Shown here: piece by piece, positions 43,775 to 47,830 of the stretch | Numbering within the stretch: position 1 is the first letter of the stretch | How the letters are laid out: every line of letters begins with the position of its first letter | NCBI GenBank assembly: GCA_003574685.1 | Contig: QOCQ01000007.1 | Coordinates: 62,001 to 126,000, forward strand | DNA length: 64,000 nt | Source: Rhodospirillaceae bacterium SYSU D60007 | Lineage (GTDB): Bacteria > Pseudomonadota > Alphaproteobacteria > Reyranellales > Reyranellaceae | Direction of reading: 5' to 3' | Made by a program: the position numbers and the translations under genes | The notes under the pieces: generated by a model | Told to the model about the DNA's origin: nothing | Database searches by the model: none | What the model saw: the letters and a program-made list of their open reading frames with translations, nothing else

Positions 43775-43783
43775 CCCTCATAG

Positions 43784-43917
43784 CCTTCCCCCGGAGGGGG
43801 AAGTTGGCGCGCACCGCCGGAAGGGGGATGCCGCCACGAGCACGGCGTCAAATGCGAGACACCGAACGTGTTGCACCATCCCCCTTCCGCCCTTCGGGCA
43901 CCTTTCCGGGGGAAGGT
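43784..43917. repeat. Palindromic REP-like element
   Basis: The left end folds as CTTCCCCC/GGGGGAAG and the right end as CCTTTCC/GGGGAAGG with mismatches. Inside, GGAAGGGGGATG (43819-43830) pairs with CATCCCCCTTCC (43877-43888). The plan and the CGCCCTTCGGGCACC spacer match the element at 23809-23998. It fills the gap between two convergent genes. Confidence 0.75.
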
Positions 43918-43942
43918 TCAAGAGACCCCATGAGCCCAGTTG

Positions 43943-44716
43943 CTACTCTTCCTGCTTGCGGCGCTTGCGAGCCTTGACGGCGTATTCCCCGCGCGGACGG
44001 TTCTCGTTGTTCATCGGATTGACGATGGTATCGCGGAAGCGGTCCCAGTCATCGTCCTTAAAGTCTTCAAGCTTCTCCACCAGCCCGAAGGTTTCCAGCG
44101 GCTCGTCGGCGTAAAGCCAGCGCGGGAATGGCTGCAACTGCAGCAATGGCACCTCGCTGCGGATGTGGATCGGCGTGCCGGTTCGGGTAAGCCTTACATT
44201 GGTGAAGATCGGCCCGAACCAGCGGTCCGTCTCGATGATGCCCTCGTAGGCTTCATAACCGGAAGGACGCGGAAAGTTGGCCAGCGGCCGTGACAGCACG
44301 CTCCAGCCCGGGGCCGTACGCGCGACATAGCCGCTCCAGATCTGCAGCAGACCCGGTTCGTTCGGCGCACCCAGGAACGGCAAGGCGAACCCCCGGCAGT
44401 CCTCCGGCACGCGCTCATCGAAGTAGTCATCGAACCCTGGATAGTGAGTCTGGTGCAGCGGCAGCCACTGCCCTTCCGCATCCTCGTGGCTCCAGAAGGT
44501 TTCCCGACCATCCCACAGGATCTGGAAATCCATCGGCGGGAAAAGATACCAGCCGAAGGCCGAGGCCGTGCGCATGGGTTCGCAATAGCGGAAAGCACGC
44601 GTCGGGAACGTGCCGCCCGCCGCCTGGTCCGCGCGCATCGGCGGCCGCGCATCCGGCAGCATCCGGTAGAACGTGATGAGAGGCTTGGGAATGTCCGGCT
44701 TGGGGGACTTGCTCAT
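43943..44716 (-). CDS. DUF6065-like hypothetical protein
   Basis: A 257-residue soluble protein with no signal peptide or TM segment. Aromatic and proline-rich stretches such as FGWYLFPPMDFQILWDG and WSGYVARTAPGWSVLSRP look like the DUF6065 group, whose role is unknown. The C terminus is strongly basic (VKARKRRKQEE). The start at 44716 (MSKSPKPDIPKPL) is preferred over the frame to 44767. The identification is from memory of the pattern. Confidence 0.6.
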   Translation of the reverse strand: MSKSPKPDIPKPLITFYRMLPDARPPMRADQAAGGTFPTRAFRYCEPMRTASAFGWYLFPPMDFQILWDGRETFWSHEDAEGQWLPLHQTHYPGFDDYFDERVPEDCRGFALPFLGAPNEPGLLQIWSGYVARTAPGWSVLSRPLANFPRPSGYEAYEGIIETDRWFGPIFTNVRLTRTGTPIHIRSEVPLLQLQPFPRWLYADEPLETFGLVEKLEDFKDDDWDRFRDTIVNPMNNENRPRGEYAVKARKRRKQEE

Positions 44717-44847
44717 AGGTCTACCAACGCATGCTCGAATGAAAAAAATCACCATGCGCAATCGCATGGCGCCTCACGCTGCAATCATAGACAAAGTTCG
44801 ACCGGGAGTGGATGATCTGCCGCAAAGGGCAGTCAAGAAAGACGAAA

Positions 44848-44877
44848 GGCGAGCGCGGCACTCGTACCGCGCTCGCC
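44848..44877 (-). terminator. Rho-independent terminator of the repeat-protein gene
   Basis: An 11-base perfect stem (GGCGAGCGCGG at 44848-44858 with CCGCGCTCGCC at 44867-44877) and an 8-base loop. Reading the minus strand, the stem is followed by TTTCGTCTTTCTT. It starts 30 bases after the stop of the tandem-repeat gene, so that gene is separately terminated. Confidence 0.8.
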
Positions 44878-44907
44878 TCTCCGAACCCGATGGTTCGCGT
44901 CGTGACC

Positions 44908-45327
44908 TTAGAAAGCCGGCGACATCATACCCATCTTGATCTTCGACTTGCCGAAGACCGGGGCCATCATGCCGAGCTTGACCTTGGACTTGCCGAATGC
45001 CGGCGCCATCATGCCGAGCTGGACCTTGGACTTGCCGAACGCCGGCGCCATCATGCCGAGCTTGACCTTGGACTTGCCAAACGCCGGCGCCATCATGCCG
45101 AGCTGGACCTTGGACTTGCCGAACGCCGGCGCCATCATGCCGAGCTTCACCTTGGACTTGCCGAACGCCGGCGCCATCATGCCGAGCTTCACCTTGGACT
45201 TGCCAAACGCCGGCGCCATCATGCCGAGCTTCACCTTGGTCTGACCGAACGCCGGCGCCATCATGCCGAGCTTCACCTTGGACTTGCCGAATACCGGCGC
45301 CATCATGCCAATACGAACCTTAGTCAT
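44908..45327 (-). CDS. Small protein made of 14-residue tandem repeats
   Basis: A 139-residue protein of no family known to me. After MTKVRI come nine complete 14-residue units and a final half unit GMMSPAF. Consensus is GMMAPAFGKSKVKL; the outermost units vary most (APVFG, SKIKM, MSPAF). Each unit joins a Met-rich hydrophobic half to a Lys-alternating half that could form a beta strand. There is no signal peptide, TM helix, Cys or Trp, and the net charge is strongly positive. GAGGAGG about eight bases before the ATG and the strong terminator at 44848 argue that this strand is expressed. The neighbouring BTAD/TPR regulator gene lies 209 bases upstream on the same strand. Structural, nucleic-acid-binding or precursor-peptide roles are all open. 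Confidence 0.8.
   Translation of the reverse strand: MTKVRIGMMAPVFGKSKVKLGMMAPAFGQTKVKLGMMAPAFGKSKVKLGMMAPAFGKSKVKLGMMAPAFGKSKVQLGMMAPAFGKSKVKLGMMAPAFGKSKVQLGMMAPAFGKSKVKLGMMAPVFGKSKIKMGMMSPAF
44911..45309. repeat. 42-bp tandem repeat array, 9.5 units
   Basis: The DNA under the repeat protein is 9.5 copies of a 42-base unit, 399 bases in all. Units fall in two types: those near the protein's N terminus use GTG for Val of KVKL, those nearer the C terminus use GTC and alternate Lys/Gln at the next position. The alternation indicates an 84-base second-order unit. Because 42 is a multiple of three, frames on both strands stay open. Confidence 0.92.
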
Positions 45328-45536
45328 TACCGCATCCTCCTCAGGATAGACCCTCGTGTCTGGAGCGACCAATTTGCGACTGGCAAACCGGGGCGACCCG
45401 CTCCCAAACTCGATCCACGCCACCCGACGTGGTACGTGAGTAGAATGTGTTTAAACCGACGAAAGCGCCGTTAATCTATTGCGAACGATCTGCGAAAAAC
45501 TTTCCTGCAATGGCCTGAATCCACTTTTTCAACTGT

Positions 45537-47567
45537 TTATTGCTCTGGAATACCCGCCATTCGCAAGCCAACGATATAGCGCTCCCGGTCCTCCGGACGT
45601 TCAAGCGGTGACGTTTCGGCGTACATTTTTATTGAGAATCCGGGATGTAAGGACAATAGCTGACGTGCCAAATTATGTGCCTCCTCGCTCTTTCCCAGGT
45701 AGGCGAGGCTGACAGTAACCGGCACATAAATTGCCGTGAAATTCGGATGCTCGCGAAGGATAGGCTGGGCCGCCACAGCGGCATCCTGATATCGGCCGGA
45801 AAGGGTCAGGGAAATAACAGTGACCGTTTCCCAAAAGTACCGGAAGTTATCGAAGGGGGAAAGGGTCCGATATCGTTCCATCCGCTCCAGGGCATCGTGC
45901 GGGCGGCCCCGGTAGCAGGCAACGAGAGCGCTCAGCGCCCAGCCCCAGCCGAAATTCGGGTTCACCGACAAAGACCGCTCATGGAAATGCTCAGCCAGAT
46001 CGTAGTTGCGCCGAAGAAACGCCTCGACGTGGCCCGCGAAGGAAAGCCCCATCGGATCATCGGGGTCGCGTTCGATGGCTGCGCGCGCGTGCTGCTCGGC
46101 CGCGGCGGCGCTCCTGGCGCGGTCCGTCAGCCAGCCTTGCCCGATGCCCATGAGATGCCAGAACGCCATCCAGGCGTGTGCATGCCCGTAGTCAGGGTCG
46201 AGGCGCAGGGCACGGTCGAGAAACTCGCCTGCAGTCCGGAAGGCTGTCGACGATGCCTGGTAGATCAGCGGCACGGCGCGCAGCAGACAATCGTAGGCGT
46301 TGGCGTTGTCCGGAGGGCGGCGCCGCACACGATCGATCTCGGCCTGCAGGATCTTGGGATTGAGCTGACCCACAACGCCGCGAACGATCTCGTCCTGGAC
46401 GTCGAACAGGCGTGAGAACTCGACCGTGCGCTGGTCCGTCCACAGCGCGCGCGCATCCTCGCAATCCACCAGCCTGACGCCGATGCGCACGACGCCGCCC
46501 TGCCGGCGGACCGTGCCCTCGATGGCATACCGCACGCCGACGCGCCGGCCGACCTCGCGCGGATCAATCTCCTGGTTGCGGAACGCGCCGGACGAAGCGC
46601 CGGGTATGACGGACAGCCATTTGAAGCGCGACAGGCCGCTTACGATGTCTTCGGCGAAGCCCTCGCCCAGATAATCCTGCTCGGGATCGCCGCCGACGTT
46701 GCGAAACGGCAGCACCGCCACCGGCAGGGTCTCAAGCCTGGTATCCAGCCCCGCAGCAGGTCCCGCCGCGGTGGTCTGCACAGCCTCGGCCGCAGTCGGG
46801 GCGGCGCCGACCGGCAATACGGGCGCGTCGGCAAGCGGCTGATCGAGACGATCGGCGCGGATGCGTTCGTAGAGGTGGATGGTGGGCTGGCCGGGCTTGG
46901 CATCAAGCGTCCGCTTCAGCGCATCCACGCACACCTGGAATTGCCGCAGCGCCGCGGCCTTGTCGCCGCCGCGCGCGAACGCCTCCATCAGCCCGCGATG
47001 CGCCTCCTCATGCGAGGGTTCCAGCGCCAGCATGTGCCGGGCGATGGCTTCGGCGGCCGGCAGGTCACGCAGCGCAATCAGCTCCCGCATCGCCGAGGCC
47101 ATGCCGCCAAATGCCTGCTCCCGCCGCCACGCGCGCTCGCCGTAAAGCCAGTCCTGGAAGGCGCCGCCGATAGCCGAGAGGTCAGCCAACAGGTCGCCCC
47201 GGTAAAGCTCCGGAATCCGCCGCTTCTCGTCCAGCGGACCGTCCGCCATGCGCTCGACCTCGCGCGCATCGATCCACACCTGGTCGAGATTCACGCGCAT
47301 GACGTCGCGGTCGATGTGCAGCGCGCCGGCATCGCCGTCGCGGAACAGGGCCCGCAGTTCGGTAATCGCCTGACGCAGCGAACCGCGCGCCTGCTCCTCA
47401 AGGCGGTCGCTCCAGACCAGCCCCGCGACGCGCTCGCGCGTGGCGGCCGCATCCGGGGTCAGCGCCAGGAAGGCAAGCACCGCCCGGGTCTTTTTTGCCC
47501 GCGGCGTGCCGTCGGAACCGTCCGACAATGCCACCCGGCAACCGCCCAGAAGATAGATCCGCAGCAT
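45537..47567 (-). CDS. Winged-helix/BTAD transcriptional regulator with TolB-like and TPR domains
   Basis: A 676-residue cytoplasmic regulator. An OmpR/SARP-type winged helix (about 1-95; LRQAITELRALF is in the recognition region) is followed by a bacterial transcriptional activation (BTAD) TPR domain (about 98-245), an Ala/Pro linker, a TolB-like nucleotide-binding-type segment (about 281-400; LPVAVLPFRNVGGDPEQDYL) and C-terminal TPRs (about 420-676). This architecture is common in Alphaproteobacteria beside cyclase or stress genes. Targets are unknown; the repeat-protein gene just downstream is the obvious candidate. The 3' part and the flanks are less GC-rich than the surroundings. Confidence 0.85.
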   Translation of the reverse strand: MLRIYLLGGCRVALSDGSDGTPRAKKTRAVLAFLALTPDAAATRERVAGLVWSDRLEEQARGSLRQAITELRALFRDGDAGALHIDRDVMRVNLDQVWIDAREVERMADGPLDEKRRIPELYRGDLLADLSAIGGAFQDWLYGERAWRREQAFGGMASAMRELIALRDLPAAEAIARHMLALEPSHEEAHRGLMEAFARGGDKAAALRQFQVCVDALKRTLDAKPGQPTIHLYERIRADRLDQPLADAPVLPVGAAPTAAEAVQTTAAGPAAGLDTRLETLPVAVLPFRNVGGDPEQDYLGEGFAEDIVSGLSRFKWLSVIPGASSGAFRNQEIDPREVGRRVGVRYAIEGTVRRQGGVVRIGVRLVDCEDARALWTDQRTVEFSRLFDVQDEIVRGVVGQLNPKILQAEIDRVRRRPPDNANAYDCLLRAVPLIYQASSTAFRTAGEFLDRALRLDPDYGHAHAWMAFWHLMGIGQGWLTDRARSAAAAEQHARAAIERDPDDPMGLSFAGHVEAFLRRNYDLAEHFHERSLSVNPNFGWGWALSALVACYRGRPHDALERMERYRTLSPFDNFRYFWETVTVISLTLSGRYQDAAVAAQPILREHPNFTAIYVPVTVSLAYLGKSEEAHNLARQLLSLHPGFSIKMYAETSPLERPEDRERYIVGLRMAGIPEQ

Positions 47568-47633
47568 TCCCGATCCCGCTTCTTATGCTGTTTTCTTAAA
47601 GTGCTACGTTGATTCCAACATATAAGGGCTTGG

Positions 47634-47642
47634 ATTATATCA
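47634..47642 (-). promoter_or_regulatory. Extended -10 promoter of the BTAD regulator
   Basis: On the minus strand TGATATAAT combines a consensus TATAAT (47634-47639) with the TG of an extended -10 element, 67 bases before the start codon. No good -35 box is present. A 10-base palindrome GTCAATTGAC (47643-47652) touches it, and GTCAATTG recurs at 47707-47714, so it may be regulated. The AT-rich stretch stands out in this genome. Confidence 0.5.
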
Positions 47643-47830
47643 GTCAATTGACAATGCTTTCACGCGAACCCAACGACGCGGCCGCAACAGCGACTGCTCA
47701 ATCAACGTCAATTGGCTGAATATAAAGAAAAAAATCGAGCCGGCGCAGTCTCGCCCAGCGCCTCCCCAAGGGGAAGCGCAAAATCACGCTGTTCCTGGCA
47801 CGGCCGGCCGCCGTTCGTCGCGGACGGTGG

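Follow-up and report, generated by a model that had tools for sequence, protein, structure and literature searches.

The question raised by this locus is what a small protein built almost wholly from one short unit does, and with which of its neighbours it works. Within the window, the 64,000-nucleotide stretch of DNA analysed here, the repeat peptide gene (44908..45327, minus strand) encodes 139 residues with ten [VI][KRQ][LIM]GMM[AS]P[AV]F units of the VKLGMMAPAFGKSK type at a 14-residue period. The opening MTKVRI is followed by nine 14-residue units and a closing half unit, which together account for the ten motif starts, and the C-terminal residue is the F of the last unit. TRF reports the underlying DNA as a 42-base array at 44911-45309 (9.5 copies, 91% matches, score 630, against 76 for the second-best repeat row of the window), and this array is read in frame from the ATG at 45327 to the TAA at 44908, behind a Shine-Dalgarno sequence, GAGGAGG (45336..45342, minus strand), that is invariant across four members of the genus. 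A real protein of 139 residues with 9.5 copies of its repeat, as the original prediction had it, is thus borne out, as are its high positive charge (net +26, pI 11.8) and its AT-rich flanks, which have a GC content of 52.6% (45328-45536) and 53.6% (47568-47830) against 66.0% for the whole window. The strongly periodic segments among the 307 stop-to-stop segments of at least 100 residues in the window all lie on the 42-base array; an antisense frame at 44812-45474 (plus strand) was set aside as a gene, being open because a stop-free 42-base unit opens every frame.

Matches of the repeat protein to Pfam, NCBIfam and PHROG families are best regarded as repeat artefacts, because their stretches, taken singly, either fail to pass or do so only weakly. 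Membership of PBSX_XtrA (PF17356) was rejected on this ground: the whole-protein score of 31.1 exceeds the cut-off of 29.7, yet no single stretch does so, the best being 12 residues long and the score a sum over repeats. Whole-protein E values reach 2e-7 for PBSX_XtrA and 1.3e-7 for a holin PHROG, and autotransporter matches are also weak. Domain scans found no secretion or anchor domain in the 139 residues, and the acidic ortholog in genome G005 matched no Pfam family.

Two features of the locus did not figure among the first observations on this DNA, namely a structured leader and the gene immediately downstream. The latter (43943..44716, minus strand) encodes a divergent DUF6065 (PF19541) protein of 257 residues, which scores well above the gathering cut-off (Pfam E 6e-13; 49.2 bits against 26.6). 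All 24 members of our alignment A7 match DUF6065 at E of 10 or less, and the window protein, although only 17-23% identical to the aligned classical members, shares C45, P47, A51, G55, G122, N147, E162, T163, N173 and P190 with all 24, while D164 and W56 are common to nearly all. The family-wide constancy of C45, N147, E162-T163-D164 and N173 marks them as candidate active-site or binding-site residues. PHROG 7084 matches the window protein weakly (E 0.0012); no enzyme motif was recognised in DUF6065, and its profiles found no credible relative in the PDB set, where BmdC and Beclin-2 (E 0.98 and above) were dismissed as chance. A dUTPase-like fold, suggested by eye, was likewise discarded, as its hhalign probability of 0.39% is no better than controls (0.09-0.89% for ten column shuffles, 0.29% reversed), and AF2 with three close rows gave no usable model (pLDDT 34). 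Beyond the gene, between the convergent DUF6065 and solute-binding-protein genes, a palindrome at 43777-43925 with sub-threshold microRNA matches on both strands is perhaps a shared two-way terminator.

The pairing of the two genes extends far beyond the window. At 32 of the 32 loci of the window's DUF6065 branch that include upstream DNA, the gene directly upstream encodes a small protein in which [VI]x[LIM]Gxx..P occurs 1-11 times. These loci come from four Reyranella-like genomes, five genomes in a pair of sister genera and nine in another family, together with one paralog, one Rhizobium plasmid and 12 viral or prophage contigs. The motif pattern behind these peptide counts was widened after the data were seen, and its strict form misses some true cases (L091, and L106 and L162, which were found by reading); a second Rhizobium plasmid, with a peptide 99.2% identical, was left out of the counts, as was one further degenerate unit each in L155, L166 and L167. 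Within the 75-genome family, the repeat gene lies downstream of the regulator ortholog in nine of nine genomes and is followed by DUF6065 in all nine (by Pfam for the window, by sequence for the rest), and the branch profile returns 10 loci at E<1e-100 in the same nine genomes. All four genomes of the window's genus encode the repeat protein, with 10, 5, 4 and 11 units, and the unit of the sister genera is GG[LM]SPLFVETVEVEM or similar, acidic and spaced by 15 or 10 residues. A search with the repeat alone matched nine of the 75 genomes, seven of them real and two false (G020 and G060, rejected as YadA-type or other long proteins), and missed two true modules, in G004 and G005, that were found by reading. 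The paralogous module, in G001 (L094 4471-13916), has nine 29-residue units, DUF6065 and then an EamA transporter; divergent from it lie three BTAD/TPR genes in tandem. In wider samples, branch DUF6065 genes occur in at least 4 of 385 genomes of the class (at least 2 of 276 genera) and in at least 1 of 398 of the phylum, the window's own; these searches, with A1 and A2, scored at most six candidates per genome, so misses are possible. A second family, f43, has the branch in 9 of 25 genomes, each with an upstream protein of 2-7 VRLGNMSPAF-type units, and the Rhizobium plasmid carries three VHIANKSPAF-type units before DUF6065 and an MFS transporter gene after it.

No such peptide accompanies 44 other DUF6065 loci (L061-L090, L093, L110-L113, L145-L151, L197 and L199), which indicates that action on peptides is not a necessary property of the fold. 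Among these, the 30 classical loci (L061-L090) have none within about 1.5 kb, and the strict pattern occurs in 0 of their 1,924 short segments; L197 and L199 are two weak and different DUF6065 genes within the family. Chance matches to the pattern in the negative set comprise one frame of L078 (loose pattern), one long frame of L197, and a 495-residue terminase-like frame of L150 and L151. As the strict pattern, the only one applied to L111-L113, is not fully sensitive, the negative set is strong rather than absolute. At L111 (3442-6723; Sinorhizobium medicae), the classical DUF6065 gene starts some 10 bases after an autotransporter gene.

Two scans of IMG/VR with branch profiles yielded 16 distinct branch loci and seven distant ones (L145-L151), besides duplicates of earlier loci (L152, L156, L159, L161 and L165). 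The small peptide is present at all 12 branch loci with upstream DNA, four others (L153, L154, L157 and L164) having been dropped because their contigs include none. Six complete peptides (L141, L143, L144, L158, L162 and L163) contain a single unit within 30-35 residues, for example DTGRIRMGAGWRLP, and in such relatives a variable stretch of about 10-20 residues precedes the unit. L167 (3707-4741) encodes a peptide with Cys-containing 10-residue repeats, VKLGASCRTPA, followed by DUF6065, inside what we take, by eye and from the gene order, to be a T4-type head cluster, with a portal-like gene before and a protease-like gene after. In three contigs (L153, L154 and L157) the very first bases are an ATG in the reading frame of DUF6065, as if provirus callers took DUF6065 as the first viral gene, and a terminase-like gene lies a few kb beyond DUF6065 in L142 and L154. 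On the phage contig L145 (1256-5681), DUF6065 is close to genes of similar style (IPEWYKK, KKCVP) and to genes that by eye appear methyltransferase-like and epimerase-like.

What is conserved in these peptides is the unit, [VI]-x-[LIM]-G-x-x..P, often ending SPxF, and neither its spacing (10, 14, 15, 20, 22, 24, 25 or 29 residues) nor the charge of the protein, which ranges from +26 to -17. Purifying selection on the motif is strong: unit-by-unit codon comparison gave nonsynonymous to synonymous ratios of 0-0.165 over the seven motif residues in 20 of 20 multi-unit proteins, and of 0.13-1.08 over the four residues that precede the motif, with unit pairs that are non-independent and multiple substitutions uncorrected. 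In eight of nine f43 proteins synonymous differences amount to 0.7-1.0 per site with the motif almost unchanged, so selection maintains each unit in its own right and the units are not merely recent copies; the ninth, in G816 (0.34), looks more recently copied. Peptide charge is inversely related to the charge of the DUF6065 core, with rho of -0.54 over 30 pairs and -0.87 over nine lineage means, values that are uncorrected for relatedness, owe most of their strength to a single change on the tree, that of the two sister genera, and leave out the L140 and L160 peptides, which are cut at a contig end. Peptide charge density and the charge of the partner core are +19 and -8.5 in the genus, about -15 and 0 to +1 in the sister genera, where the acidic peptides face a partner without its negative charge, and between these in other lineages; Rhizobium is off the trend (peptide -6.0 per 100 residues, partner -5). 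This opposition supports contact between peptide and DUF6065, without proving it. Taken together, the pairing of the genes, the selection on each unit, the single-unit relatives and the matched charges suggest that the unit is a ligand or substrate of DUF6065.

The regulator upstream of the repeat gene (45537..47567, minus strand; 676 residues) had been described as a winged-helix/BTAD/TPR protein; the BTAD domain (E 8e-15) and TPRs were recovered, while the winged-helix match is sub-threshold. Of its proposed extended -10 promoter, a TATAAT with preceding TG is present at 47634..47663 (minus strand), a consensus match only, in a setting where two promoter-like sites were seen against 0.8 expected by shuffling. 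Orthologs of the regulator (at least 58% identity, E<1e-250) occur in nine of the 75 family genomes, from three genera, and all nine orthologous loci keep the regulator alongside the repeat gene; the frame in G004 holds one stop. In the eight loci whose contig reaches that far, the gene before the regulator encodes a CBS-domain protein; the G004 contig ends short of it. The regulator is not a general partner of the peptide, however, since the constant partner is DUF6065, and neither annotation nor inspection by eye revealed a BTAD gene in the stretches read from Rhizobium and the second family. It is probably a local regulator of the module. Repeated TTGACGATG-like words between regulator and repeat gene in L057-L059 are possible regulator boxes.

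A second level of control may lie in the RNA. The repeat gene is preceded by a structured 5' leader of 126 nucleotides including the start codon (45325..45450, minus strand), with 37 pairs. The four members of the genus fold alike (single-sequence z -1.5 to -3.3), pairing is kept in 97.3% of 147 cells, and six pairs are changed on both sides, against 2.1 (sd 1.2) in shuffles and 0-2 in slid versions, for a structure that had itself been picked by folding these four genus sequences. The leader covariance model matches each of the four genomes once at E<1e-38, with the next-best match at 0.003, so that strong matches are confined to the repeat-gene locus. No Rfam model matches the leader with an E of 1 or less. 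A GGGG-loop hairpin is predicted at a like place in five of five sister-genus leaders. The outer helix would pair CAUUCUaCUC with the Shine-Dalgarno region and may hide the ribosome site; as this helix shows no covariation, being invariant or lost, such sequestration is only inferred. Downstream, a terminator-like hairpin of 17 pairs is predicted between the repeat and DUF6065 genes (44844..44881, minus strand). With the Shine-Dalgarno sequence, it accords with the translation and termination signals originally noted, but the three terminator-like sites in the stretch after the stop equal the shuffle mean of 3.0. Strong stems recur in most of 20 intergenic stretches folded (nine family and eleven viral-contig loci, with no shuffle control), which suggests that more peptide than partner is made in the Reyranella family and at most viral-contig loci; the gene gap of 16-20 bases in Rhizobium and the f43 loci read leaves no room for a hairpin, so peptide excess is not general. 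At L056-L059, in one sister genus, a very long predicted hairpin directly after the stop is followed by a second terminator-like hairpin.

How these elements might operate together can be outlined as follows. A small ribosomal protein with 1-11 short units would be made, in the window's genus without a separate leader peptide and under the control of the structured RNA leader and probably the adjacent BTAD/TPR regulator; the intergenic hairpin, where present, would probably keep it in excess; and the downstream DUF6065 protein would bind the units and modify or cut each of them, the peptide being a multi-unit substrate. We favour this account, tentatively and at a little under an even chance for the statement as a whole, over one in which the units are bound and nothing more. 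Among the three roles first guessed for the repeat protein, the multi-core precursor fits best, because relatives shrink to a single unit in peptides of 30-35 residues. Against the favoured account stands, besides the want of a recognised enzyme motif in DUF6065, the neighbourhood of the pair, where we saw neither a peptidase nor a modification enzyme of a known kind; Pfam found no known RiPP enzyme among the regulator, DUF6065, the CBS protein and two transporters, and other neighbours were judged by annotation or eye. Further, the S/A/Q/R position of the unit varies, which counts against a fixed modified serine.

The main rival is a non-covalent partnership, in which the units are docking motifs through which a flexible protein would tether, store or inhibit copies of DUF6065, and nothing is modified or released. 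A short motif in many copies, linkers free in length and charge, and charge complementarity speak for such a protein; against it, the six complete loci with only one unit show that multivalency is not essential, and we consider this explanation rather unlikely. The two-gene layout with the small gene first, and its occurrence on a plasmid, on viral-classed contigs and in a phage head-gene cluster, recall a toxin-antitoxin or phage-conflict pair, with a harmful or regulatory DUF6065 neutralised by the peptide, but stable chromosomal synteny in the family (with the CBS-domain gene before the regulator in eight loci), the want of a PADLOC match for six proteins at E up to 0.1, and the 30 classical DUF6065 loci that have no peptide make this improbable. 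That the protein is structural had been the first of the original guesses. A beta-roll like the 14-residue head repeats of YadA-type proteins, or an amyloid-like fibre, gains credit from whole-protein matches of the window protein to BpaC (4e-11) and CbpF (2e-6) in the PDB set, from a single CbpF stretch with an independent E of 4.4e-6, and from an AF2 model that draws one strand per unit. The best single BpaC stretch reaches only E 0.014, however, the agreement being mainly AFG or A-x-G every 14 residues; the AF2 model is of low confidence (pLDDT 53), and no secretion or anchor domain accompanies the repeats. We set this structure aside because the relatives do not keep the period, with spacings of 10-29 residues and members of a single unit, and judge it very improbable. 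Least credible of all is a polycation that binds nucleic acid or membrane, which the charge of the window protein invites and against which speak the strongly acidic orthologs in the same gene order (-10 to -17 in the sister genera), together with the Rhizobium peptide at -5.

To return to the proposal that DUF6065 binds the units and most likely changes them, its broadest form would be a new ribosomal peptide class, with 1-11 units each recognised and chemically altered by DUF6065, a novel enzyme of peptide modification. Bacteria, a plasmid and phage-like DNA would carry this system, and in one genus a dedicated RNA leader would control it; this joint claim we hold as possible but more doubtful than its core. 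Neither gene of the peptide-DUF6065 module falls within a system whose function has been established, the peptide lacks the leader of a RiPP, and its product is hypothetical. That the repeat belongs to no described family agrees with the open PMC literature, which mentions neither DUF6065, PF19541 nor the motif strings (subscription papers and preprint servers being outside this scope). An odd repeat protein thereby becomes part of a conserved two-gene module of alphaproteobacterial genomes, a plasmid and phage-like DNA, and DUF6065, a family without known function, gains a partner open to experiment that is likely to be its substrate or ligand. Were modification true, the module would be a new class of ribosomal peptide, and its peptide chemistry would be new and rest on very small parts that are easy to express; were the units only bound, it would be a new repeat docking system.

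Among known systems, the YadA/Hep_Hag head repeats share with the window protein a 14-residue period with an AFG triplet; unlike them, relatives of the module vary the period, and the units have an invariant Pro and come without a secretion or anchor domain. The window regulator has the BTAD domain and TPRs of SARP/AfsR and CadC-like BTAD-TPR regulators, with weak Trans_reg_C and CadC matches; no such gene was seen beside second-family or Rhizobium modules. In comparison with classical DUF6065 loci, the repeat peptide is seen only with the window's branch. Multi-core RiPP precursors, such as those of graspetides, cyanobactins and dikaritins, are ribosomal proteins with a variable number of near-identical units and a dedicated adjacent protein. 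Unlike these, the genus peptides have no leader, all four members beginning their first unit at residue 2 or 4, and the module has a hypothetical product and no recognised RiPP enzyme. It nonetheless shares with them the small ribosomal protein, the variable number of near-identical units and the dedicated adjacent protein, and, in some lineages, an intergenic hairpin or an adjoining transporter.
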